From Isoetes taiwanensis (taxonomy: Eukaryota > Streptophyta > Lycopodiopsida > Isoetales > Isoetaceae): 64,000 nt of DNA. Position numbers and translations under genes: made by a program. Positions within the stretch are counted from its first letter, which is position 1. Every line of letters starts with the position of its first letter. The notes beneath the pieces were generated by a model, which searched no databases, was not told the origin of the DNA, and worked only from the letters and a program-made list of their open reading frames with translations. Positions 13,827-45,852 of this stretch are shown in pieces. The stretch is from assembly GCA_021234155.1 (NCBI GenBank), contig JAJEKV010000004.1, forward strand, positions 5,582,109 to 5,646,108. The letters are read 5' to 3'.

Positions 13827-14321
13827 TGTAACGGGCCCATGGTAGACCGCTCGAGTATTCGAACCTTGAATGTGCCTGTGGGGCGTTCCCGAGGCACCGG
13901 CATAAATGGGTAGAAGCGACTATTCATAAACGTCTAGATGGTTTTGCCCAGTTGGCTAAGGGCATGTCGGTTAGGAACATTACAGTTGGTATCAGAGCAG
14001 GTCTCGAGTTCGAGTCTCCATGGGTGCCTATATGCATGGGTAATTTGCAAAGACTTGATAATCATTGTGGCATGGTATAGCCGTGGATGCTGAGGACGAG
14101 CATAATTCTAGTGGGAGAGACTGTAACGGGCCCATGGTAGACCGCTCGAGTATTGGGAGAGACTGTAACGGGCCCATGGTAGACCGCTCGAGTATTCGAA
14201 CCTTGAATGTGCCTGTGGGGCGTTCCCGAGACACCGGCATAAATGGGTAGAAGCGACTACTCATAAATGTCTAGACGGTTTTGCCCAGTTGGCTAAGGGC
14301 ATGTCGGTTAGGAATGTTTCA
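13827..14321 (+). mobile_element. TRIM (miniature LTR retrotransposon)
   Basis: Two 158-bp LTRs (13827-13984 and 14164-14321) start TGTAACGGGCCC and end in CA. A primer-binding site follows two bases after the first LTR, and a purine-rich GTGGGAGAGAC precedes the second. Flanks carry a perfect 5-bp target duplication TATTC (13822-13826 and 14322-14326), and the empty site is preserved in the other host LTR near 9258. The first 42 bp of the second LTR region is tandemly repeated (14122-14163). The interior has no coding capacity, as expected for a TRIM, which depends on proteins of other elements. Confidence 0.92.
13987..13998 (+). promoter_or_regulatory. TRIM primer-binding site, initiator tRNA-Met type
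   Basis: TGGTATCAGAGC is the 12-base sequence complementary to the 3' end of plant initiator tRNA-Met, placed two bases after the first LTR. It fixes the element's direction as plus. Confidence 0.92.
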
Positions 14322-14985
14322 TATTCTGAGAAATCCAATAATCTTCAAAGATCCACTCGTCAATTCTCGCACCCAAAGCCCTCGAAAATTGTTTGAACAT
14401 GATTTCCCCTTCTTAATCCCCTGTTTTCGGCCTATTCTTGGCAAATCAGGCCCGTAAGCTTGTCTTTTAGCTTCGTTTAAGAGTCCTTGGCTTAGATTAG
14501 GTAGATTCGAGAATGTTTAGCCACGATTAGATAGTTAGTTCGAGAGAAAAGGACGGATCTTGGCATGACAGAAATTTAGGGTTTTTGAGAATTCTTAACA
14601 CAATATCCCCGGCATAAATGGGTAGAAGCGACTACTCATAAACGTCTAGACGGTTTTGCCCAGTTGGCTAAGGGCATGTCGGTTAGGAATGTTTCATACT
14701 CTGAGAAATCCAGTAGTCTTCAAAGATCCACTCGTCAATTCTCTCATCCAAAGCCCTCGAAAATTGTTTGAACATGATTTCCCCTTCTTAATCCCCTGTT
14801 TTCGGCCTATTCTTGGCAAATTAGGCCCGTAAGCTTGTCTTTTAGCTTCGTTTAAGAGTTCTTGGCTTAGATTAGGTAGATTCGAGAATGTTTAGCCACG
14901 ATTAGATAGTTAGTTCGAGAGAAAAGGACGGATCTTGGCATGACAAAAATTTAGGGTTTTTGAGAATTCTTAACACAATATCCCA
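14236..14985. repeat. 375-bp tandem duplication inside the 5' LTR
   Basis: 14236-14610 and 14611-14985 are near-identical. Each begins inside the TRIM's second LTR (GGCATAAATGGGTAG) and ends in host-LTR sequence at CAATATCCC. The duplication therefore happened after the TRIM inserted and carried part of the TRIM with it. Confidence 0.9.
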
Positions 14986-24242: not shown

Positions 24243-25085
24243 ATGTTGCTTTCGGAGCTGATATAGCAAATCAGAGATTAAGTTGAGGTTGTGGAATTAT
24301 GATACCAATGGTTCTTCTTTCAGTGACAATTGGAGATGGTGGGAGAGAAGTAGTATCTAGAGGCTTTGTGATTACTATATCAAGGGAGAAGTCTCCAGGA
24401 TTGATGAGGTGTAAAAAAGGAGTGCCAAGATGACGACACATGGATGGCCAAGATTTGTTCACAAATTTATAAATATCTTTAGGGGCCTTGTTCTCCTCCT
24501 CTTTGGGCTCTAGAATCTGACATGGAGCAAGGGTAGTGGCAGCCCTGGGAAGATGGTGTCAGAGACCTCTTCCCCCATGCAAGATGTCTTGAAGCTTTTT
24601 TGTATTACCTTCTTAAATAAAGTAGTGCACCCCATTTATTTTCCTACGTCTTTTGCATTGTTCTTTATGATTCTATTTTTCCATTATCTTTTTATTCTCC
24701 AAAATTTCTCCAAATTTCTCGTCATTTTTTTCTTTTTCCTTGGAGCAGCATCAAAACTGGTCCCATCTTTGCCTTTGAGGCCGGATGATGAGGATGTGGG
24801 AAAATCCGTCATCACCTTGGCCTCAAGATCTAATTAAGGATTCAATGTAGGAAATATATTGTGCAATTACATATTCTCCTAATGGCCACTTAGGAATTCT
24901 CATGTCCTAGAGACCTTGATATACCAAGAATATTCTTATTGTACAACTTTTCATCCAAAATCAGTTTGGGTTATAGTGGAATTTAACACGAACACTATAT
25001 CGTGGAATACAGCCTCATTATCTAACATAGTATAGTTCCTATAGTTAGCTTTCATAATACTCAGTACAGATCTAGTTTTTCCAAT

Positions 25086-25375
25086 AAAGCTAACTTATAT
25101 GCTAATATTCCCAGTCTTTTTCCTCGAAAAGGATTACCATAATGTGGAATAAACATTGGCACTTTTATTAACCATATTGTTAAGAAAATTGTTCGTAGAA
25201 CTAAGAAATTATCATTTCTTAGGTCGACATAAAGCTAACTTATATGCTAATATTCCCAGTCTTTTTCCTCGAAAAGGATTACCATAATGTGGAATAAACA
25301 TTGGCACTTTTATTAACCATATTGTTAAGAAAATTGTTCGTAGAACTAAGAAATTATCATTTCTTAGGTCGACAT
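25086..25375. repeat. Perfect 145-bp tandem duplication
   Basis: 25086-25230 and 25231-25375 appear identical base for base, from AAAGCTAACTTATATGC to TTCTTAGGTCGACAT. No change was seen between the copies, so the duplication is very recent or is an assembly artefact. Confidence 0.9.
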
Positions 25376-27290
25376 AATCATCTTCCTCAAGATGACCTCA
25401 ACTGCATAGGTTTGACTCTAACTTGGAGATTCAAACAACTCTACTTCTGGGAAAGTGAGAATTGCCTCTCCAACATGCGACAACTTAAAGTAGAATCCTT
25501 TTTGAGGCACTCATGTACTGTAGTACATATCATAGGATTCTACGCCAATATACATATACTAGATCGCTTTAGATCGTCTACATAGGTAGCTAATCCTTCC
25601 ACTTAGTTAACTTCTCATGGATAAATTTTACTCTCAACACATCTTCCAAAACACACTCTCACAATCCTTCACATAGACCATTTCAATGTTCCCATCATGT
25701 TGCATGCATATTTTAACCACATTAGGTTAATAATATCTACTTCACTAGTACCATCCTAGGGTACTTGGTCAAACCTTACTAGAACCAAGTGCACTGCCTA
25801 GCAGTCTCAAGCAATGTGACTCATGTTCTCACACTTACATAATGGTTCCATATAAGTAAGCTTGTGGCAATCTTAGTATGCAACTATCCTGGCTCTCATA
25901 GCCTGACCCATTGCACACTCAACTCCAAGTAAAAACTTGGCAAACCCATATCTTCCCATACCTAGTATAGGATTTTGTGATGAATTGCACATGAACATAA
26001 GGATCAACCACCAGGACATAACCACTTTTCCACAAGAAAAGACTCTAATGCACCAGTTCCAGACACAGTCACCATGCCCTTTAGTCAATCTTCTCAACAT
26101 GCATTAACAATCCTTCAAATAAGATTATATCACAACTTAGACACAATTCAAGAAACTCTATGCTTATAGAGATTGCTATGGTCATATGTATATTATCCTC
26201 TAGATAATATCCAACACTTCGACTGATGAACTTCCAATCATATTCTCAACCCATGGTCACATAATCTCACCTAGCTACTTGAGATTATTTAGGCAACCTT
26301 TTGACTTTGGCAAATCAAATAGTCCTTCAAGCTCACTCCTAACATCAGTTTTATTAGCAATCCTTCTTCCAAGTCCCAATGCTTGAAGCAGTATTGCCAA
26401 CAACAGCTTTTGACCATGCCAATAACTTCCCATTGAGCTCTAATCCATTTACTTCTTGACCCTAAGTCAGAAATTCCATGAATGGAGTAGTCAAAGATTA
26501 AGAATTTTTTGCAACCCCAAGACACACTTAGGTTGAATTCCAATCTTTCACAATGTGCTCATTACCGATGTCGTAAAACCTTTCCTCCTTCAGAGAAATT
26601 GAGCCATTCAAGCAAATCCTTACTTAGAAAGGACAAATTCTGGACGACTATAGAAAAAATCTATAAGTGCACTACTATAGATGTGCATATTACACCTCCG
26701 AATGTGCGTATCACATCCCCCGGGAAAGAAATGGAGAATAAGCACCTACTTAAATTTCCATAATGAATTCTAATTATCTACACCGATAATTAGTTGTTCC
26801 ACAATCCAATTACGAACACATCATTATGATTTAAAGCAAGATTACCGTATTGCTTAAAATTACACAATACCTTGCCCAGCTTAAATCAACGTTATGAACT
26901 GATATCATGTACATGGTATATTTTCAAGTTGTAAAGCATATTAACATGCTATCTCTTACGTTCTTTTCGGGAAGAACCATGAGTAGTCTCATAACAAGTT
27001 GATCTCTACGACTTATGTCATGATTACATAACCTATTCCATTTCTATGGAACAAAGCATCAACAAAATGGATTTGGATGCACAAGTAACAATTCTGAAGA
27101 TCGGTTGCACCATATTTTTGAAGGACCAACCCCACCTTTTCACCAATATTTATGTAAGTTAAAACTCCAAATATTAGAAATTGTTTTTGTCTAAGGTTAA
27201 CAAGCTAACAAAATCGCACTATGGACTTCCAAGATTTGTATTTCAAAACTCCGGAACAGTATGTAAGGAACACATGTTTGACACCATCAT

Positions 27291-32071: not shown

Positions 32072-35000
32072 TCAAGGGTCAACCACCCCTTCAGCTGACT
32101 TATCGATCTCACCTTCTTCACTGTGTTGTGCCCCTCCCTGCGTCGTCTGTTTTAGGAACTCCATCTTGGCCAGGAATTCTTCGGGACTTAGCGTAGCATC
32201 TATCCCCTCCTCTACTACCTTAAGAGGAGACTTCTCAACCTCAACCTCCTTATCTTGCTCTGGTGGTACTGGGTCTACGGGTTGAGCTTCTTGTGTTTCC
32301 ATCACAACGGAAGGTTCTTGATCCTTGAGGACTAGCTGCGTAAACTTCGAGCTACCCTCGACCACATCTTGGGTGCACACTAGTGTAGTGCCCCCCAAAG
32401 CATTAATGTTGTCCTTCTTCTTTCTAAAGAAAGACATGCCCTTTGCTCCAAAATCTGCAACCCTTTTCAAATGGTCTGTGACAGAATCCTTAGACCTTTG
32501 GAGAGTGGATTGCAACTCGTGCACTGTTTGTGCAGGAAATGGACAAGGAGGTGGAGGAGTACTCGCTACTTTCGATGCCTTGGAGCCACCTACTTTCTTT
32601 TTTCCCTCTGCTATCTTTTGCAATGCACGGGCTTGCGACCTCTTCTCGTCAAGCATTACTTCAAGTTGATCAAAAATTTGAACAAGCTTAAGCTGCATAG
32701 TTTCGTCAATCTCAAATGCAGAAGCTTTATACCCTTCGCACAATGCTGCACGGCTAAACGATCCTCCAGAAAAGAAATCCAGCACACTGCAACCCTCCAT
32801 CATAAATTTGCGCACTAGGTATGTGCATGTCCTGGAATCCAATTGATTCGGCAATAGAGCACACGTGCCTCCTGCTGCACCCTTATCACCCCAAGGCCGA
32901 TACAACCAATATGCTGAAGGAAAGTAGACAAGCGTTATGATTGGTATTGAAAAAAAATGGACGACTGCTCAATTTTGAACCATGTTACCTGCTACGCATC
33001 CATGATCGGGCAAGTTCTTCTCTATGTCCTCAAGTTCTTTCAAGTGTTGCAGAAACATTGAATACTCTTGAGGATGGTCTGCGTCCACGAAGCATAGATT
33101 CAGGTCATGCAGAGCAGGGGTAGCCGCTTGGTCTCTGGCCACATACATTACTAGCACAAGGCTCTGCAGCTCGCGAACTTTAGAGGAAGGGTTTCTCGTT
33201 TTAGAATCCTGATACGCTCCCACCCATACACGACTACCACCATCTATCGTTTTCATGGTGGACAAGCACTTACTCAAACGATCTGGACTGATAAACACTG
33301 TGATCCAATATAGTTGCTGGTCCGTTAGTACACTGATCTGATCCAAGAACTTTTGGTATTCTTCCATGCTCCATTTTCTGAGATTCCTGAAATCACATCC
33401 GATAAAACGAGCAGATGTATTCACAGCATCAACAGACATCCCCAAAGGACTAACACGGTAGCACTTGAATGCTTTACATCCCTCTTGCCCCGGTCCATGC
33501 AGATACTCATTAACCTTTGCGATAAGAGCCTGGGGAAGGTTAAGCTTTTCTGCCTCCCTGCGGCTATCCACCCAATCACTGACGATGTTTGCGAACATGA
33601 GCATCAAATTCTCCGTGAATATTGGATGAATTTTTCTCACATTAGCCATGTTCTGTACTTTGAGCTTCTTTGCTTCCTTCAGATATTTGATAAGTGCACG
33701 CTCAACGGTGCCAATCTTCTTCAGTTCCCCTGTGCGGATTTTCATGACACGCCTGCCAGTATAATCTTTGGTGGTCTTGATAAAAGGTGGTGCCTGCCAT
33801 AATCTCATTCAACAGCCTTTGCAAATCCATTGGATGCATGGACTTTAAAGGTCGGCATTTGTTATTCGTGAACATCCTCGGCCGGTCCTTAACCACTATC
33901 GTTTCACCCTTCTCATCTTTGAGTTGGTCTTCATAGAATAGCTGAGCCATTTGGAGGCACATATTCCAAGTCTCGTCATCCAAGTACACAAAGTAATCAT
34001 AGTCTCGCATGGCGGCTTTCTTCAAAGTGCTTCACTATGGCGAGCCAATCCTGCACAACATAGCAAACTTAGCATATCTGAAGTATATGGCATATCTGAA
34101 GTATATGGTCTTCAAATTGGGCGTCCGCCCAATTTGAGACTCGAGAGGCTGCAGGCAAACATGTTGAATGCATACAGGGGCAACCCAAATTGGGCGCCCA
34201 TCCAATTTAACAGTATAGTATAATGTTACATGCCAATGTAAGGGGGGAAATCGGGTGTGTGCCCAATTTGATAGTCAAGAGGCTTCAGGCAAACATGCTA
34301 AATGCATACTTGGGGGGACCCAAATTGGGCGCCCACCCAATTTGACAGTCAAAGTAGAATGCTACATGCCGAGGTTTGGGGGAAATGTCTGGGTGTCAAA
34401 TCGGGTGGGCGCCCGATTTGAGAGCAATGGGGGATCTCAAGAAAGCATATTGCATGAATGAATTGAAGCCAGACTTACTGAATATGCGCCACCTTGGGAT
34501 AGTCCACGCTTTCCTTTCTTCGCCTTGCCATAAAACTCCCATTGATTTCTTAGCTGCTGGATTTGCTCAAAGTAAACATCCATATGAATGGTATTCTTTG
34601 TGATGTCATTGCTTTCCTGGCTCACCTTTACATACTCTGTTGGAGTCAGATTCCCCGCCAGCAACCAACATTTTCTTTTAGAATAGAAAAAGAAAATAAG
34701 GTCTTTCAAATGTCCCCTTTCTATTGGCCATTCCATGGCCTCGTTAACAAGAATTTGGGCAACTGCAGTAGTGTGATTCCCATTTACTATCCAAAAGTTT
34801 GCATTGTCCAAATCGCTGGCCTTTCTCCACTTTATTGCACGTCCTGTGTTTGGGTCATAAGGAACAACATCCGCACAAGGTGGATGCATTTGGACATTAA
34901 TGAACGAATCATACAGTTTGTCAATATGTTCTGCACTAATGACCATGCAGGTCATGTTTGCAGGGGCTTGATGCATTTTAAATATGTCCACCTCAATTTC

Positions 35001-36105
35001 AAATTCAACTCCAAGAGGGCAGATCCTTTCCCCGTATTTTATGTTGATCATTGCGCTCTGTGACAAACTCACGTCTGCCCTCCTGGGTCAAGTCCCCCCC
35101 ATAGGTTGAGCACTTCACAATTTGCAAGTCATCTTCCTCTGAGCCTGTCTCAGTCTCACTCTCCCCTTCCGATTCACCTGAAGTCTCGGGTGGAGTCGTT
35201 TCTCTTCTTCTCTTGGAGGAGGAACCTATTGCCTCGTGTCTACTTCGTTTTTTCACATGCTTTTCTGGTAGGGACTGTTCAGATATCTCCTCTGATCCAA
35301 TACTTATGTCCGGTCTACGTGGTCTTCTATGCATACCTCCAAGAATCAGTTTTGGCGTTTCAGTGCTTTGCTTGGTGGGTGTTTCCGATCTTTTCTTCTT
35401 TGGAATACTGATTTTGTCTGACGCCTCGGTAATGGCCTTCTCTGTGCCTTTGGCCCCATCACCCTTCCTAATAACTCCATAATGTGACTTCAACCAAAGG
35501 GTGTCATACACCTTTGGTCGGTTCTTACCATGATATTCTCTGTACAGGGCTTTGATCAATTTTGTTTGTGATCAAGTATCCATTGCCTAACTGTATTAAA
35601 TCCATCTATAATATATCCCGTTTGGTCAATCCAGATCTCTCAAGGCTTTTGTAAGAAGCCAACACCCAGCCCTTGGCTTGACACGAATGTGGAGCCTCAG
35701 TGATGCTTGTAGTCATTAGCTGAGGATTGTAAGTGTCAAAAGGCAACATGTATCCAACAAATGACTTATCCAACACGTCTTCCACAATAAGATCTACCTC
35801 GCTATCAACTTCAGTACACACAGTCATATCAATTGCTATACCAGCATTCTGTGTCCTCCTAGTCCCCGGCTCAGCAAAGTACAAGCACAGATCCTTAAGA
35901 TGATTTGTGCTAGAGCCAGGGTGCACTAGGCCAACCTCGATTCACCATGTGAACTTATCGGCAACGGGAGTTATTTGATCGGGGACCACCTCAATACCAT
36001 CAAACTGAACACTTGACTTTGTTTCCTTTGCTGCAGCAAATGCCTGTGCCATCGGAGGGCCAGTCCCAACTACACTGGCAATTTGTTTAGTCCTAGCAAT
36101 AGGTG
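32072..36105 (-). pseudogene. ParB-like and methyltransferase-like fusion protein
   Basis: Order on the minus strand: 36105-35606 (AIDMTVCTEVDSEVD), a linker that turns into a Ser/Glu/Arg-rich disordered stretch (35559-35005), then a ParB/sulfiredoxin-like segment (35072-34437) with WIVNGNHTTAVAQILVNEA in place of the ParB GxHRxxA box. An intron (34051-34478, CA|GTAAGT to TGTGCAG) follows, then DYDYFVYLDDETW, a long region to 32989, and a 75-bp intron (32914-32988). The last exon starts AYWLYRPWGDKGAAGG and has GCSVLDFFSGGSFSRAAL...AFEID, resembling motif I (D.F.G.G) of amino-methyltransferases in a late position as in beta-class enzymes. No DPPY was seen, so activity is doubtful. The C-terminus is low-complexity and acidic. 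Disruptions: TGA at 35942-35944 and frame breaks near 35600, 35070, 34020 and 33800. Confidence 0.6.
34114..34419. repeat. Palindrome array 1, inside a confirmed intron
   Basis: Five copies of the palindromic core start at 34114, 34187, 34248, 34322 and 34398 (spacings 73, 61, 74, 76). The typical core has arms AAATTGGGCG and CGCCCAATTT separated by two bases. The spacers share GGCAAACATG and AATGCATAC. The copy at 34398 has AAATCGGG matched by CCCGATTT, a paired change. The array lies wholly in the 34051-34478 intron; its nearest core is 63 nt before the 3' splice site. Confidence 0.9.
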
Positions 36106-36187
36106 CTGCATAACATCAAGCAAGAATCCCATTAGTATGAAAAAACAATAGCCTAGAATAAGTAACAAAACATGCAAGGGGAGGGTC

Positions 36188-36812
36188 AAATTGGGCGCCC
36201 GCCCAATTTGCACCCCCCGTGTGATGTGTGAAAGCACAGAAACAAGCAAGGGGGTGCCAAATTGGGCCACCGCCCAATTTGCACCCCCAGGTGATGTCTG
36301 AGCAGCTATGGACATGCAAGGGGAGGGTCAAATAGGGCGTCCGCCCAATTTGCACCCCTTTTGTGATATGTAGAAGCCCAGAAACAAGCAAGAGGGTGCC
36401 AAATTGGGCACCTGCCCAATTTGCACCCCTAGGTGATGTCTGAGCAGCCATGGACATGCAAGGGGAGGGCCCAAATTGGGCGCCCGCCCAATTTGCACCA
36501 CATTGTGATATGTAGAAGCACAAAAACAAGCAAGGGGATGCCAAATTGGGCGCCCGCCCAATTTGCAACCCCAGATGATGTTTGAGCAGCCATGGACATG
36601 CAAGGGGAGGGTCAAATTGGGCGCCCGCCCAATTTGCACCCCCCTTGTGATGTGTAGAAGCACAGAAACAAGCAAGGGGGTGCAAAATTGGGCAGCCATG
36701 GACATGCAAGGAGAGGGTCAAATTGGGCGCCCGCCCAATTTGCACCCCTCTTGTGATGTGTAGAAGCACAGAAACAAGCAAGGGGATGCCAAATTGTGTA
36801 GAAGCATAGAAA
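36188..36812. repeat. Palindrome array 2, 71-bp units in pairs
   Basis: Cores start at 36188, 36259, 36330, 36401, 36473, 36543, 36614, 36685, 36720 and 36791. Spacing is 70-72 bp, except for one 35-bp step where a unit was partly deleted. Two spacer types alternate (GCCATGGACATGCAAGGGG and AGCACAGAAACAAGCAAGG), so the true period is a dimer of about 142 bp. The array ends about 82 nt before the acceptor TTATGCAG of the 36105 exon of the minus-strand gene. Confidence 0.92.
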
Positions 36813-37315
36813 ACAAGCAAGGGGGTGCATGCAAGGGATGTGGAGAAAAGCACCCGCAGGTGATGTCTCGGAAAGGGCATGTGCATGCATGTTGTAAGGT
36901 GCATGTAAGGCTGTTGTAAGGTGCATGTAAGGCTGTTGCTTATAGCCAGGGGCTTATAGCCAGGGCAGAGATGGCTTATAGTGGGGGCATGCAAGAGTGT
37001 GCATCTAACAGATGGCCTTCAAAAGTCTGTCCTAAGAAAATGATCTAAAGGTAAACAGAACAACATGACCTTTTCCTCCCTTTGAGGGTCGACTTTCCAT
37101 CAAAGAAGTGGCGCAATCAGATCGAAGGCGACAGACGCGATGTGATCCTCGCAGAAGTGGATGAGGCGGTGTGATCCTCGCAGAAGAAGCCTACAGGCAG
37201 TATTGGTCGGAAAGAAAAGAATAAGCTTCCAAAAGGGACATGCAATGAGGTTGGATGGGCGAATGACAAGTGGCGGCCATGCAAATGGTGGAGCTTTTTG
37301 AACAAAAATAGACCA

Positions 37316-38800
37316 AGGTAAGTTGTCTCTTGCGGGTCGCATTACAGTGGCCAAGTCAATCCTTAGTAGTACCCATGTTTATATGGCATCCTTACTGCTA
37401 GCACCACAGATCAAAGTGTGTGAGCTCATTGCAATAGTTCGGAACTTTATTTGGGCAGGTACTGAGGAAGGTGATGTGGTCAAGGTGGCTTGGTCGAAGT
37501 GCATCCTTCCAAAATGGGCAGGTGGTCTGGGTATGATGGACTTCTTATTGCAGAGCAAAGTGCTTATTTTAAAGTTCATTTGGAGACTCCTGAATGGTGA
37601 GGATGACTCTCCTGGTTTACGCCTTCTTAGACAAGCTCTTGGTCACTGTATCCCTCTAGGCAAGAAGGCTGTCAAACCAGTCCTACCTTGGGCTTTATTT
37701 CAGACTCTGCAGCCTTTTCCAAGTGCTTCTCCATTTTTTTGCGTGGCTTGTTGGCGGCATGGGAGGCGGAACATCTTTTTCAGGCCATGCCCCTCTATCC
37801 ACACCCTATTGGAGACTCCATGGTGGTGGGCACCTGCCTCGGACCCATCGGCACCTCCATTGGCGACCTCGGTTCATCCCCTTATCTGAGAGGCGATGGG
37901 TTCTTGCGGTGTTGTCTCTATTCAAGCATGGAATGAGGAGGGTAAGCCCTCTTGTCTTGGCTTTGAATTTCGGGCAAAGTTCTGCTCTCTCGTTGGGATG
38001 TATCTCTATGGGAGAAGGTTGAGAAAATTTGCCTCTTATAGTGCAAGTTGGTGTTCTTTGAAAAGGGTGCCATGGGACTGTCATGAAAATATTCACAAAG
38101 GCAAGCAATTTGTCGGATCATTATATCGCCTTCTTTTAGCACCACAATCCCTCCGGTTGCGGATGGGTAGCACCTACATGTTCCACTGACCCACTTTGTG
38201 TCGTACATGGCGATGGCTTTGGGATAGGTTGCTCCACCCTAAAGTCTACATCTTTGTGGTGGCGAGGTTATCCACAGGTGCCTGCGGGTTAATGCCTTCG
38301 ATATCGCTATCATCCTCGTTATATCTGCGGTATGATGCTCTACGTCTTTCGGACGTTGAGACTCTTGAGCATTGTCTCTTTGATTGTCACGAGGTTCAAC
38401 CGGCGTGGTCACGGCTACAAGGTTTGTTTAACGGTACATTGATTTGTCGATGCATCCTTTTGGCGTCCTATCCCAACGCATGGCCTCCAGCTAAACAAAC
38501 AGACACCACATCTTTCAAGGCATTTATTCATCTGCACACAGTGTTATTACGGTGGCCCAGAAAAAGATATTGGCGACCCTCACGAGTGTTCCTCCCTTGA
38601 TTTCGAGGCGTGGTGGAGCGATGCGGATTCGATATCTTGAATTGTCCTAATGCGAGTAAGTACATTGTGCTCCAGGCTCGTGCTCCTGTGGCATCTTTGT
38701 GTGCTTACACAGTTAGATGAGACATGTAAATTTTGTACTTTTTCTCTGATTAATAAACTTTTTGGCTTTCGTCCTTCAAAAAAAAAAAAAAAAAAAAAAA
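37316..38800 (+). mobile_element. 5'-truncated L1 LINE with poly(A)
   Basis: It begins inside ORF2 at the post-polymerase region (KLSLAGRITVAKSIL). VRNFIWAG, VAWSKCILPK and GGLGMMDFLLQSKVL follow, all typical of plant L1 elements. The frame breaks near 37.8 kb and again later. A Cys/His-like stretch precedes the 3' UTR and a poly(A) run at 38778-38800. AAAAATAGACCA occurs at both edges (37304-37315 and 38825-38836) and may be the target duplication, although the right copy lies among similar A-rich repeats. It sits in the central region between the two divergent transposon genes. Confidence 0.78.
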
Positions 38801-39192
38801 GGAGAGACCATAAAAATAGACTATAAAAATAGACCATAAAAATGGACTTTTAAAATAAATGCGCCCCAAACTTTAAAATAAATGCGCCCCAAACTTTAAA
38901 TGTGAAGGTTTAAGTATGCCACATGGGGCAAAGTGGGCCACACCATCGCCCCACCCATTTTTAAATTTAAAATTATATGTGGCCTGACACAATAGTTTTA
39001 TAATTAATAACCACGTGGTTGAATGTGAATTTAAATTTTGAAAACTTGCACGATGGGTGAGGACATTCATGTCACGAATGTTTATATGGTCCCAAATTGG
39101 CCCAATAAACAGACGTTTGACAAATGCATGTCCAGTTCCCTCAATATCTAAAGATCTATTGAGGGGTCAGCCTAGATACCAACTGGGGTAGC

Positions 39193-39790
39193 AAATTGGG
39201 CGGGTGCCCAATTTGACACCCTAGGTAGATGTGCATGGCCAAAGTAGATTCCACCTGGGGTAGGAAATTGGGTGGGTGCCCAATTTGACACCCTAGGTAG
39301 ATGTGCATGGCCAAAGTAGATTCCACCTGGGGTAGGAAATTGGGCAGGTGCCCAATTTGACACCCTAGGTAGATGCGCATGGCCAAATTAGATTACACCT
39401 GGGTGGGCAAATTGGGCGGGTGCCCAATTTGACACCCTACATAGATGTGTATGGCCAAAGTAGATTCCACCTGGGGTAGCAAATTGGGTGGGTGCGCAAT
39501 TTGACACCATAGGTAGATGTGTATGGCCAACCTAGATTCCACCTGGGGTAGCAAATTGGGCGGGTGCCCAATTTGACCCCCTCAGTAACTGTGTATGGCC
39601 AGCATAGATAATACCTGGGGTAGCAAATTGGGCGCGTGCCCAATTTGACCCCCTAAGTAACTGTGTATGGCCAGCTTAGATACCACTTGGGGTAGCAAAT
39701 TGGGTGGGTGCCCAATTTGACTCCCTAAGTAAATGTCTATGACCAGTCCAGATACCACCTGGGGTCACAAATTGGGCGGTTGCCCAATTT
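39193..39790. repeat. Palindrome array 3, nine exact 72-bp units
   Basis: Cores start at 39193, 39265, 39337, 39409, 39481, 39553, 39625, 39697 and 39769: an unbroken 72-bp period. The usual core has arms AAATTGGGC and GCCCAATTT around four bases. Spacers carry ACCCTAGGTAGATGTG and CCACCTGGGGTAG; the first resembles the CCCCTAGGTGATGT of array 2. The last core ends about 90 nt before the acceptor TTTTGTGCAG (39871-39880) of the plus-strand gene. Confidence 0.94.
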
Positions 39791-39983
39791 GCCCCCCATG
39801 TAGATGTGTCTCGCACAATTTAACCCCCAAGGTAGATCTGGTCTTACTTGGCTCTGGATCTAATTCAATTTTTTGTGCAGGAGGTGTACCTATTCAAGGA
39901 CGATCGGGCAGTTGCCAAAGGATCCGTGGGAGACAGGGAGCGATGCCATTTTAAAGACATCCCGGATGAACTTGTGAGTGTTG

Positions 39984-40192
39984 ATGATCATCTCGATGTG
40001 GTAGACCATGTTGATTGTGATGAGGCCATTAAACGCCTCAAGGTGGCACAAGGAGTGTGAGTATATACTGTGTATAGGTGGTTTTGCTTAGTGGACTATT
40101 TCGTCCTCTAGGTTTTGAGTCCCATTTCACAGGTCCCTTGTATGTATCTTGATTTTTCTTGATAATAGATTGTCGTCCTTTAAAGAAAAAAA
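39984..40192 (+). mobile_element. 209-bp LINE 3'-end insertion in the DUF7869 gene
   Basis: The 15-mer AACTTGTGAGTGTTG occurs on both sides (39969-39983 and 40193-40207), and the insert ends in an A-rich tail. It carries a short LINE-like C-terminal frame followed by a 3' UTR. Removing it and one copy of the 15-mer joins the exon frame cleanly (PDELVSV to GVLAVFEG). This is a textbook 5'-truncated retroposition. Confidence 0.88.
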
Positions 40193-41486
40193 AACTTGTG
40201 AGTGTTGGTGTTCTAGCTGTGTTTGAGGGGCACCATATTCTCTGCTGGCCTACTCCAGATGCAAAAACTTTAGGAGAGACACTGGGGTCCTTCATTCTCT
40301 GGAGGGAAGGTGATGTCCATGACTCCAACGTGGTGGACATGTCATCGGCATCCAAAAGACAACACGTGGGAAGCAGCAGAGACGCTATGCCGCTAACAAG
40401 GTACACGCTACTTGAGACCGACTGCGAAATTTAGCACTCTTGTGATGCCATCCCTGCAGGAAAGGGCTTTATATCCTTCACTGGTCTAGACAATGCAGTA
40501 TGTGACCAGTTCTTAGGTATGAAGACCATAGGAGTGTCTGTTACTGAGGGTTTTCCCCTTCCGACTGAGGTGAACTTCCGGTGTCAGGCATGTTTGATAG
40601 TGCCTAAAGCAGGCATGCTTGCGAGGTGGAATAATGATCTTGTTAAGGTTAGTGGAGTGAAGGTGTCTGATATTTTAAGTGCAACACCAGTAGAACAGCA
40701 TGATACGACATCAAGCCAGGGTAGCTCAGAGCTTGAGAAGCATCCACAATACGAGAAGCGTAAATACACCTTCCATTTTCGACAGCAAAAAAAGGTACTA
40801 AAGCCTCCAAAGATCGATCAGCTTACACCCAATGAAGCCATCTTGAAGTATAGGAAGCATGTCTTGCAAACAGAGATGTTGTGAGAAATTCACTAAGGAT
40901 CAAGCTATAAACATGCAAAAGGATTTCCTCACCATGAAATCGAGTGACAGGGTCACTTTTGTGTATGATATGTTAGGCAACAACATGAAGGGCAGAAGGG
41001 TCCATCGGCTAGTCTTGCAAGGCATGACTGTATGTGAGAGAGCTTGATCTCAGGGTATCTCAAGTGGAAGGCACAATTCGGCTTTGGTGCTCGCAAAGCT
41101 GAGCATGGCAATCCAGGCACGATGAAAGCTCGTGCGGCAACCTTGGCCTCAGAGGCTGTTTTCTACATGTTTGTCAGGGAATGTTGTGAATCCTTACCTG
41201 ACCGTAGAAGGAGGAATGAAGACGAGATTCGAGAAAACGTGAGGAAGTTGCCTGCAATGTTTACAAAGACCTGCATTCTCGAAGAGGTCAATGCAGAAGT
41301 GATGGCACTCACAGGCAAGAAGGTGTCTCCGACATGATTTCATAGAACGTGGAGGCGTAGCTTCAAGGATGTCAGTATTGCTAAGAAGATTGCATTCTCC
41401 AAGTGTGACACTTGCAAGGTTATCCACACGAAGTTGTTGAAGACCAAGGATGAGGCTGAAAGGAGAATAATGCATGATCAGAGAAG

Positions 41487-42105
41487 GAAGGAAGGAAGGT
41501 ATTTTTATCGTCTATGGAGACCAAACGGTTTATGGGACCCAATACAAAAGCGCCTTTTGCACCTGCTCCAAGTCATTCCAGGTCGCCAAAGAGACGACCT
41601 TGCCCCAAACCTCGACCCCGTACAGAAGGACAGGCTCGACTAGCGCCCGAAACAGATGTGACTGATGACCCCAATCATAGAGCTCTGCCTGGTGACTGTT
41701 GTTCTGCATGGCATAAAGCGCTTTCCAGCCTGGTGTCACCCGCAAGCGAATGGATGCCTCCCAACAGAGCGAGGAGGGGAACTCCACCCCTAGGTACTTG
41801 TAGGTGGGCGTGACCTCCACAGGTTGTCCCCGATATGTGAGTGCAGGAGGCGTGGGGTGGCGTGAAGAGGATATGAGAACCACCCTGGTCTTGGCCAGAT
41901 TCACGCGCATGTCTGTAGCCTGGCAGAATGTGTCTAGGGCATCCAGATGAGACTGCATAGCTTCTGGGGTGTGGGCCAGAAGGTCAACATCGTCCGCATA
42001 GATGAGCTGGCGGATGACCTGGTGCAAAAGATGTATGCCATCCCCCCCATGCTCAGTAAGCCAGGGCTCTAACTGGTCAATGTAGAGGGCACATAGACTA
42101 GAGCA
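41487..42105 (-). mobile_element. Truncated non-L1 LINE inside the DUF7869 gene
   Basis: The minus strand reads CALYIDQLEPWLTEHGGDG, RQLIYADDVDLLAHT (active-site YADD near 41995), YKYLGVEF and LYGVEVWGKVV. A deletion then brings the 3' end close, and the tail is repeated CTTCC (plus GGAAG near 41490). It is closest to the LINEs at 15.8 and 59.5 kb. It separates the zinc-ribbon-like part of the host transposase from the MDQ block. Confidence 0.82.
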
Positions 42106-43632
42106 GCAATCATGTCGCACCCAGTACTGGTCATGGAGACTGTACTCCCACAGGTATCCTCGAGACTATGTGTCTATGATTCACGACAAAATGGATCAGG
42201 CAAAGGTTATGATTCCAAAGTTGCTACAGCCTAGATAAGCTGAAGATTTCATTGACAGGTGCACTTAGTCATGGCCATGGAAGAGGGTCCTATGGAAATT
42301 TTGCTTTGGAGCTGTGGTCCGATCTGTGGTCCGATGACTCCAACTTCCACGTAGGTTCCTTGAATAGTATTCTAAAAAGGTTGGAACTGCCTCATGAGTT
42401 TGCAGGAGGCCATCTTGCATTGTCTGATCCATCAGTCCCAGATTGGGCAAGGGCCTTGCGTGACACCACCGCGCTAGCGTCCAAGTTGTCGCTATCTAGT
42501 AAGAGCATCTCCGTTGACCTGCCTCAACCTGAGGGACCCTCAATGAAGCGCCTCCCTCCCACACTGATGTTGCAACTAGACAACGCATCTGGGCAAACAA
42601 AAATAGGTATGTATTCTTATACCTTTCATACCTTGTACATCTCGGTGTTTTCGAGGAGATTGAGTTAGGTTTTATGATGCCTGGCCACACACATGAGGAT
42701 ATAGATGCTATGTTTGGTAATTTTTCATCTTCCTTGAAGAAAGCCGAAGTGCTAACCATGCCTGCATTGCCGTATGAATTTCATACGTGCAATCTCAACA
42801 TGCCAGTAGTTCCAAGTTGGGAAGGTTTCATAGAAGGGTACATCCCTGATGGGGAAGATAGATTGACTGGTCACACTGGCCCTCTGACCTTCAGGTTCAC
42901 TATGAATAGTGACTGGCCTGTCATGTACCACAAGGCACGTCCTACGTTCATGGATTGGTTACCTGCTGCAGGAATAAGAATGTGGAAAGAAGGAGAGGAT
43001 GGAAAACCCCTAATGCCATCTGAAAATCCGAAGATGTTAGCACCTAAGAGCTCGGTGAAAGACCTCGGTCAGCTCCAAAACAGTATCTATAAGCGTATCC
43101 TCCACTGGGTTGCATGCTCGACGAATAATAAGGGCACTCTAGAGACGGCCAAATATATGGCACAATTTACGTCGACAATTGAATATTGGATGGGACTCTT
43201 GCAGCGTCCGGGTAACATCACCAATGTGGAAGGTCCTTACGAGGACTTTTGGCCATGCACTAGGCAAGACAGACTTGACATACCTGATCAATCCATTCAC
43301 GGATCAAGAAGGGCATGTTTGTAATGGCGCACCATGATGACATCTTGTGTCTGACATGGGTAGGGTATGCTACAGAGGAACCCCAAATGGATGATAAGAA
43401 AGATAACTTCGAGACGTCACTTGGTGGGAGCCTATCCCTGGAGGTGTTCCCAGCCAACTATGTCAATTGTTGGAAGAAGAGATGGAGGCCGATGACTGCT
43501 AATGACCACATTGAGATAGAGTGTATCGACTATGCTTCGAGTCCTTCGAATAAGAAGAAGCTACCAAACACTGTCAAGATTCATATGCTTGTTGCCGAAG
43601 CATATGCGGCACTCGCTGGGGATGTATGTTAG

Positions 43633-45852
43633 TATCATGGAAGCACTTATTTTATAAAAAGTCCACAAATTAAGGTATTGTCCATGTTTAATGAAAATGT
43701 GCTTATATGCATTCCGTTCCATGAGACACAAAAACCTCATCTGTCATGCCATGTTGACTCCAAATTGTGCCGTCATAATTTGCTCATCAATAAGCCATTT
43801 TTCTTATATAACTACCATATACTAATCAAATGTTCATAATCTTATCTTTGTTTGAGCCCTCCCAAAAACTTTTTGGTAAGCTCATCATACATCACTTTGC
43901 AAAAAGTGCCAATACTTTGCCATGTGTATCTCATAATGTTCTGCTAACTTGGTCAATGCAATAAGAAATTATGCCAACAATTATGCGATTCATTTAAGAA
44001 GAAATACTTCAATTGTGACCTTATGTCCAACTATTGTTGCTATGTCTGGTTCTGTTCAACATGCCCTTGCATGTAGAATTCATATAATACATCTTCAAAT
44101 AATACTTGAGGCTAGCAAAAAGCTCCATACAAAATTTTTATGGTGGTATGGTGGTTTTTGCAACTTTTTCATAACTTACACAAGTGTACAAATAAACCCA
44201 TGTATCAAGTGTACATGCATTCCATACTATTCATAAAAAAAAAAAAAAAAACAGACAGCACTAGCCTTGACATAAGCCATACTAGCCACCTCTACATACC
44301 TCGATCAATCCCTTGGTACTGTTATCGTCCCAATCTAGGACCAGCTATCCCAAATTGGCATATCTGCATACTTGGTATCAAAATCTTATCCTTATAATTA
44401 TGCCTAATGTAACACTAGATTACTTAGGCTTATTACATCATACTTCAAGTGAAACTACTTACCCAGAGCTTGACCCTACAAGTCAATACGAGATTGCTAC
44501 TTTAATAATAATAGCCCAAGAAACCTTTGGACATATAACTCTTATTTGCCATTTAGTCTTTAGAGACCCTTTGCATTATTATGATAGTCACCATTCCAAG
44601 CATTGGATCACCCCTTGTTCATTTATTGAATAACTTAAACTCCAGTACCTAATAATCAGAATCCATATGCTGGTATGCCATGCCATTCCCCTATTTCTCC
44701 TGTCACATGCTGCTGCATTATTAATGCTAGCCTCAAGACTACATTCGACTATAACCAGTTTGACAAATTCCTTTAGAGTAGCACAATGCTGCCACAATCC
44801 CTGGGATGTAATCTATTATGCCACACATTGCTCTAACAAACCCATACAACAAAACATATGGAACAACATTAATCAGTAAGATGTTATGCCCGTACACTGT
44901 TAATACAATCCTTCCATAAGTAAAAATATATCCTGATATTACCAACCTGTTTTACATGCGTGTATGCTCAATCCTTATGTACTGACATTCAAAAAACATT
45001 TTTAGCATAACAGTACTACATTTTGTACCAACATGTTCATAAAGTTTGAATCAGCTTGCTGCTATGCTGTATATATTATGAGGATTTCAAAAAGCAAATG
45101 TTATTACCTCAACCATACCAAAATCCTGTTTACCAGCTAGACAAGCCTGTCATGAACTTACATAGTGGTGAACAATCAGAAATATACCTTTTCCAAACTT
45201 TAAATAATATTCCAGAACCTGTTTTTGTAAAAACATATTCTCATTCATCTATAAACTTCAGTTGCCACTGCTTCCATGCTATTTCCAGTACATATTCTTG
45301 ATCACTTGACATAAAAAAGCACAACTGGAGAAGAAACACTGTACCTGCAGCCAATCAAGCAAACATTAGCAATAAATTGGTAATGATGCAAGGGCCAAAA
45401 GGTACCTTGGTGTTTCTTGGCTTATCGCCTTTCACCGTTTGTACCTTTTATGCCCTTGATCAAGAATATTACTTTTTCCTTATCTTTAATATACAAAAAA
45501 CCACACAGCATAGCCTAAAGCGAATCTTTGAGGTATTACTCAACCAAAACTTACGAGGTTAACACTACATTAGTCAGTTACAAACTTCAGAGTTCAGGCA
45601 TAGCTTAAAACTTCATACATAATGTAAGACCATAGCTTTATTCTTTGACCTGTACTTAAACCTTTAGCACCTAGTCAGCCCAACCTTCTGTTTTACATAC
45701 TCAAACCTCTCATGGCTGTATTATGAAATCATACGTCCTTACAACCATTCTTATAATCAGATTAATACATACATTACTTCATGTCATGTGATACATTTCC
45801 CACCATACCCGGGCTTCACTAAACCTAAGCTGGATCTTATCCTACTTAGACC
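43633..45852. other. AT-rich stretch, no gene recognised
   Basis: No family motif on either strand. A 17-base A run lies near 44236. Short frames on both strands overlap each other and look random. The right end of the large transposon must lie here if it is a single element, but no inverted repeat was spotted. Confidence 0.3.

Follow-up and report, generated by a model that had tools for sequence, protein, structure and literature searches.

Three groups of DNA transposons invite comparison with the arrays described here: the VANDAL elements, which are Mutator-like; the CACTA (En/Spm) elements, which carry TnpA-binding subterminal repeats and whose target-site duplication (TSD) is 3 bp; and the Sola superfamily, DNA transposons with a TSD of 4 bp. 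In the papers examined, sequence-specific counter-silencing by tandem motif arrays has been described for the Arabidopsis VANDAL elements, where VANC21 binds a 9-base motif in introns and in intergenic and terminal non-coding parts, and where such motifs form tandem repeats that differ between families and occur in the introns of VANC21 and VANB21 (PMC5735166); the same non-coding parts are targeted by RNA-directed DNA methylation (PMC10398659), and Sola is listed as a superfamily (PMC4455052). The DNA considered here is a stretch of 64,000 nucleotides from the lycophyte Isoetes taiwanensis (contig JAJEKV010000004.1, positions 5,582,109 to 5,646,108; "the window" is this whole stretch), in which three arrays of one 22-bp palindrome are all parts of a single copy of a DNA transposon that is present in many copies and has two divergent genes and a small third gene (gene 1); a sister clade of this transposon, in the same genome, carries another palindrome. 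We give a probability of about one half to the reading that the arrays are cis-acting sites on duplex DNA, bound by a lineage-specific protein encoded by the element and likely serving, by analogy with VANC, for anti-silencing or activation; the element origin of the binder, its identity and the anti-silencing outcome are what we infer.

An earlier note on this DNA knew of no such case among plant transposons, but a comparable one exists in the tandem motif repeats that VANDAL elements hold in introns and other non-coding parts (PMC5735166). Like VANDAL21 and VANDAL6 with their VANC proteins, the present element has a short tandem-repeat motif in its non-coding parts, introns included; the motif differs between related families there, as here between two clades with near-exclusive palindromes, and in VANDALs too its copy number varies (PMC5735166; PMC10398659). 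On the other hand, VANDAL motifs are of 8-9 bases, and the word stem "palindrom" is absent from PMC5735166, whereas the present site is a palindrome of 16-22 bp, in an element with DUF7869 instead of a Mutator transposase, a TSD mostly of 4 bp and a lycophyte host. No VANC-like gene was recognised, neither the minus-strand gene nor gene 1 giving a Pfam match at the cut-off and no direct comparison with VANC having been made. By analogy, the system may work like VANC; we do not call it a VANDAL, since it has another transposase domain and another TSD and nothing related to VANC was recognised in it. With CACTA elements it has in common a repeated short motif kept in defective copies, but its arrays are internal (introns and gene gaps) rather than subterminally concentrated, its terminal inverted repeats (TIRs) begin AAGCACA and its TSD is mostly 4 bp; with Sola the likeness is TSD length, the one feature compared. 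Judged by title and start of abstract, a literature search on palindromic tandem repeats in DNA transposon introns and in lycophytes held nothing on the point among the matches listed, and a search for "DUF7869" found no paper.

The three arrays are real and lie far above chance. At no more than one mismatch, AAATTGGGCG occurs 44 times in the window versus 4.1 expected (none of 100 shuffles reaches 44), and 42 of these matches fall within 34114-34419, 36188-36741 and 39193-39821. The unit is the palindrome AAATTGGGCG-NN-CGCCCAATTT: array A (34114-34419, minus strand) has five units within intron A of the minus-strand gene (hereafter the minus gene), array B (36188-36741, minus) has eight, with a period of ~71, and lies 5′ of the earliest coding exon recognised in that gene, and array C (39193-39790, plus) has nine, with a period of 72, and lies 5′ of the corresponding exon in the plus-strand gene that holds DUF7869 (the plus gene). 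The periods given by TRF, 134 (two units), 71/142 and 72, bear out the earlier note, which had proposed one palindromic unit shared by three arrays with near-equal periods, and it was also right that the spacers differ between arrays while the palindrome is the common unit. Its placing of the arrays in introns of genes on both strands is best documented for A, as intron A (34051-34478, minus) has coding homology on both sides, a GTAAGT donor whose first intron base is 34478 and a GCAG acceptor ending at 34051. Downstream of arrays B and C, acceptor-like sites read from the sequence (AG at 36106-36107, minus, and at 39879-39880, plus, the latter at the same place in C1063, C1036 and C1078, where C-numbers denote copies or stretches from other contigs) are followed by conserved coding frames; the donors were not identified in the sequence, and therefore introns B and C are supported, not proven. 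A single decayed palindrome with three mismatches (32954-32975, minus) lies in the short intron D, where C1066, C1032a, C1045b and C929 preserve it better than the window copy.

The footprint of this palindrome is sharply bounded. Over 316 units from 19 copies, taken at three or fewer mismatches in 12 selected positions, a symmetric 22-bp block carries 0.9-1.8 bits at 19 of its 22 positions and 0.3-0.65 bits at the three central ones, with ~0.4 bits at the first flanking base outside it and at most 0.32 bits beyond; the AAA/TTT ends of the palindrome, unused in the selection, still carry 1.1-1.2 bits. The spacers lose similarity, and only the 22 bp stay conserved. Across the genome searched (1,658,258,908 bases in 1110 contigs), AAATTGGGCGSSYGCCCAATTTG matches at 1386 places in the forward and 1420 in the reverse direction, and the reversed control gives no match at all. 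As to position, 105 of 112 units (at most two mismatches) in the four near-complete copies C1063, C1078, C1036 and C1066 fall in non-coding sequence, and the remaining seven fall in the plus gene; with intervals drawn by hand, coding sequence accounts for 61-68% of the element. Units occur in introns A, B, C and D. They also occur 3′ of the minus gene, in C1063, C1078 and C1066 within the non-intronic gap between it and gene 1, and in C1036 on the same side of it. Gene 1, present in the first three copies, was found neither in C1036 nor in the window stretch.

The palindromes are also retained where the genes are not. Sixteen palindrome loci were chosen from the first 100 places listed, isolated ones being preferred, and fetched as pieces of ~2.5 kb: eight show coding homology to the element, and three (C68, C226 and C346) have its TIRs without coding homology. 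Both C346 (4.05 kb) and C68 (4.13 kb) possess the two TIRs, matching 4-bp duplications and palindromes, and no coding homology, their best similarity to autonomous copies outside the palindromes being 39 and 56 bp at the TIR (2.5-kb pieces compared), while C226 has a left TIR and no assignable matching right end. Once the other five loci were widened, C112 showed a TIR with weak coding remnants and C26 a clear TIR on one side only. C140 has both TIRs over 4.7 kb and has kept its palindromes, with one marginal coding hit (E 0.001).

The sister clade (clade II, as against clade I, to which the window copy belongs) shows a switch of site. The DUF7869 of C1054 and C1046 is 49% identical to that of the window, the palindrome of this clade is GATCGCG-NN-CGCGATC, again in introns A, B and C, and the clade I palindrome was not found in either copy. 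C1054 holds seven GATCGC-NNNN-GCGATC sites at two or fewer mismatches, where 100 shuffles within 50-bp blocks give 0.29 on average and never more than 2. Intron A has one of the seven, 5′ intron B three, the region between the genes two and intron C one. Genome-wide there are 838 exact sites of GATCGCGNNCGCGATC versus one in the control. Six loci were chosen among the rows listed for this pattern, mostly for closely spaced palindromes, and all six show coding homology to clade II and lack the clade I palindrome. The clade II palindrome, at two mismatches, is in turn absent from 17 of 19 clade I stretches; C1034 has a single match, as does the window stretch, where it lies outside the element. 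In L046, L047 and L051 several near-acceptor palindromes were seen by eye to have outer TGCTCA/TGAGCA-like half-sites, and the clade II site may be longer, ~36 bp.

Taken together, a symmetric footprint that lacks an RNA-pairing signature, the preference for non-coding sequence, retention without genes and the switch of site in the sister clade argue for a binding site in co-evolution with a protein that the element encodes; of the options raised earlier for these arrays, binding sites for such a protein are the best supported. The 22-bp palindrome would be recognised in its double-stranded form by a protein of the element that is symmetric and probably a dimer; the sites would have come to occupy introns and gene gaps as they were duplicated in tandem and copied locally; the protein would thereby cover the element, gene-less derivatives included; and the likely result, if VANC is a guide, would be that the element is protected from silencing, or activated. 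If so, this would be a convergent strategy, with a second, unrelated transposon lineage of VANDAL-like anatomy in a lycophyte, and the near-exclusive palindromes in orthologous introns would make it possible to study what protein recognises the site and how specificity shifts.

Several points weigh against this reading: (i) the units of an array are related by descent and not independent; (ii) among degraded copies, C1100, C908 and C933 show no palindrome at two mismatches and C1072b shows one, in pieces outside which parts of the array region may lie, and the search for another repeated palindrome found none in C1100 and, in C908, a single arm 6-mer whose repetition is partly due to overlapping hits; (iii) C237 and C32 have no element hallmark within ~4 kb, and one further locus of the 16 has a single TIR only; (iv) the two clade II palindromes of C1046 are within the shuffle range; (v) Pfam scans recognised no DNA-binding domain in the proteins of the element, the scan for a candidate binder giving only DUF7869 and sub-threshold matches in Pfam and only a weak RsrI methylase match among PDB profiles; (vi) the centre GCG-NN-CGC (GCGNNCGC) is common to the palindromes of both clades and could suit a conserved host factor too; (vii) finally, in clade II introns A, B, C and E the palindrome nearest the acceptor precedes it by ~19-63 nt, as judged by eye, a regularity that this reading does not require.

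Among the alternatives, the one that survives best, unlikely as we consider it, is that the palindromes are bound, for the transposition reaction itself, by the transposase or by some accessory protein, in the manner of the TnpA sites of CACTA, since they are element-specific, symmetric and kept in non-autonomous copies. The sites are not, however, concentrated next to the ends: in C346, C68 and C140 the first of them stand ~0.2-1.6 kb in from the TIRs, and in the full element the right-hand 3 kb is free of them, apart from a few matches within the coding frame.

It is decidedly unlikely that the palindromes bind a transcription or chromatin factor of the host and serve the divergent genes as enhancers or insulators, even if arrays B and C do flank the region between these genes and the shared centre GCGNNCGC speaks for it. 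A host factor should keep one site, and the clades largely exclude each other's palindrome, the clade I site being absent from C1046 and C1054 as well as from the six sampled loci, and the clade II site from the 17 stretches mentioned.

Very unlikely, too, is that these are functionless tandem repeats spread neutrally via slippage and gene conversion. Copy numbers do vary, and local copying does happen: in clade II, introns B and E have ~30-50 bp in common on the downstream side of the palindrome. This similarity, in the one intron pair compared in this way, is also what bears on a possible introner-type, intron-generating element, whose introns would be copies of one sequence. Intron E, of 66 nt and without a palindrome in C1054, has one in L046, L047 and L051, and the downstream flank of that palindrome resembles the one in intron B of the same copy, with scores of 40, 43 and 30 versus maxima of 26, 23 and 25 in 300 shuffles; thus, palindrome and downstream flank seem, from these comparisons, to move between introns by local copying. 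Neutral spread does not, however, accord with conservation limited to 22 bp while the spacers diverge, with retention in gene-less elements, or with a different palindrome at the same places in the sister clade.

There remains the relationship with splicing. The earlier note had drawn attention to a narrow distance of 60-90 nt between the nearest core and the acceptor, which stands for the window itself (62, 81 and 89 nt in A, B and C) and fails in other copies, where 36 intron/copy cases span 26-428 nt: 26-145 nt in A (11 copies), 64-428 nt in B (13) and 47-225 nt in C (12), with a precision of ~3 nt. In five copies of intron A the palindromes come within 23-130 nt of the acceptor and 37-57 nt of the donor, the donor being nearer in four, and in intron D (C1066, C1032a, C1045b and C929) the gap to the acceptor is 29-37 nt. 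Clade I arrays fill introns rather than mark the acceptor, and a special link with the 3′ splice site is not supported by the palindromes of the non-intronic gap and the gene-less elements either. The best remaining support for such a link is the acceptor spacing of clade II, tighter than that of clade I; however, given local copying between introns, a similar acceptor position may be explained by copying alone. A splice-site-linked element is rejected on the variable clade I distances and the proximity of the donor, even though the clade II distances are tighter.

The idea of an intronic RNA hairpin, also raised in the earlier note, was examined on the transcribed strand of 263 intronic units, which come from 15 copies and are related by descent, so that the results are counts and not probabilities. 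Transitions that keep a G-U pair (63) and those that break the pair (56) are nearly equal, alongside 214 transversions. Double changes number 36, as against the 13, whatever their kind, that independent variation of the two sides would produce, yet only 10 are compensatory and 26 are not, and therefore the excess comes mainly from non-matching changes, as in decayed units. The substitution pattern of these units thus holds no trace of selection on an RNA stem, and with no excess of compensatory or wobble-keeping changes the hairpin is rejected. That such hairpins play a part in splicing or help the introns to remain spliceable, as the presence of palindromes in at least some copies of every identified clade I intron (A, B, C and D) and the clade II spacing might suggest, is highly improbable in view of these counts, of the palindromes outside introns and in gene-less elements, of the 66-nt intron E of C1054 that does without one, and of the wide variation of clade I distances.

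A concrete link to chromatin would be offered by the minus gene, whose predicted protein starts MARTKQTAR, the start of histone H3, just inside acceptor B in C1063, C1078, C1032b and C929 (4 of 15 copies compared). The start codon is 5 nt inside the exon in other copies, whereas in the window this ATG reads ATT (36098-36100) and the peptide (36074-36100, minus) is mutated to IARTKQIAS. One change is found in C1032a and C1045b and two in C1066, so that an in-frame start with at most two changes is kept in 7 of the 15 copies; C1034, C1036, C985, C1053 and C1072a have a partial match whose frame differs from that of the downstream exon, and in C105 and the clade II copy C1054 no H3-like start was found within three changes. 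The codons differ synonymously between copies, and hence the peptide, not the DNA, seems to be kept. A PDB profile search with the H3-like N-terminus gave no meaningful match, and a literature search, judged by title and start of abstract, found no transposon-encoded H3-tail mimic. We advance only as a speculation, and a rather doubtful one, that an anti-silencing system could have evolved in a DUF7869 transposon independently of the VANDALs, in which a minus-gene protein with a copy of the H3 tail would bind, or be brought to, the arrays, recruiting or decoying host readers and writers of H3K4, and in which palindrome specificity would have switched between two sister clades in one genome. 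Were it true, the switch would constitute a natural experiment in protein-DNA co-evolution.

With regard to the element as a whole, C1063 is ~11.6 kb long, and the genome holds at least 149 matches to the DUF7869 plus gene and at least 150 to one exon of the minus gene, counted per matched stretch. The plus gene (39881-43626, plus), with DUF7869 (PF25273; E 3.9e-25 in Pfam) as its putative transposase domain, holds the sole Pfam family above the cut-off among the scanned proteins of the element itself. The minus gene comprises the first recognised coding exon with the H3-like start (34479-36105, minus), without a Pfam match and with its frame broken in the window copy, and further exons (32072-34050, minus), the last part of which is weakly like N6/N4 DNA methyltransferases: in the window and C1066 its C-terminal exons give a weak RsrI methylase match (E 6e-4 with PDB profiles; E 0.21 in Pfam, below the cut-off). 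A ParB-like reading of part of this gene found no support in Pfam or PDB profile searches and is not claimed. Gene 1 is intronless, is located near the left end, has 43% identity between C1063 and C1066, and occurs twice in tandem in C1066 (L005:447-878 and 1300-1797).

For the window copy, the right TIR is at 43677-43704 (minus) and no left terminus was found. Target duplications of 4 bp flank C1066 (TGCT), C346 (AACA), C68 (GATG) and C140 (AAGC); that of C1078 (TAGG) is of 4 bp if one end base has changed, and C1063 fits 5 bp (AATGG) and not 4, which leaves a TSD of 4 bp in five of six elements. The window copy has probably received two retroelement insertions: one would be the stretch with long open reading frames that runs from 37302 to ~38800, between arrays B and C, and ends in poly-A, its reading frames having no Pfam match, and the other the RVT_1-bearing insert that interrupts the plus gene at ~41530-42165. 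Elsewhere in the window there are two tandem duplications, a perfect one of 145 bp (25084-25377) and one of 375 bp with 97% matches (14234-14984).

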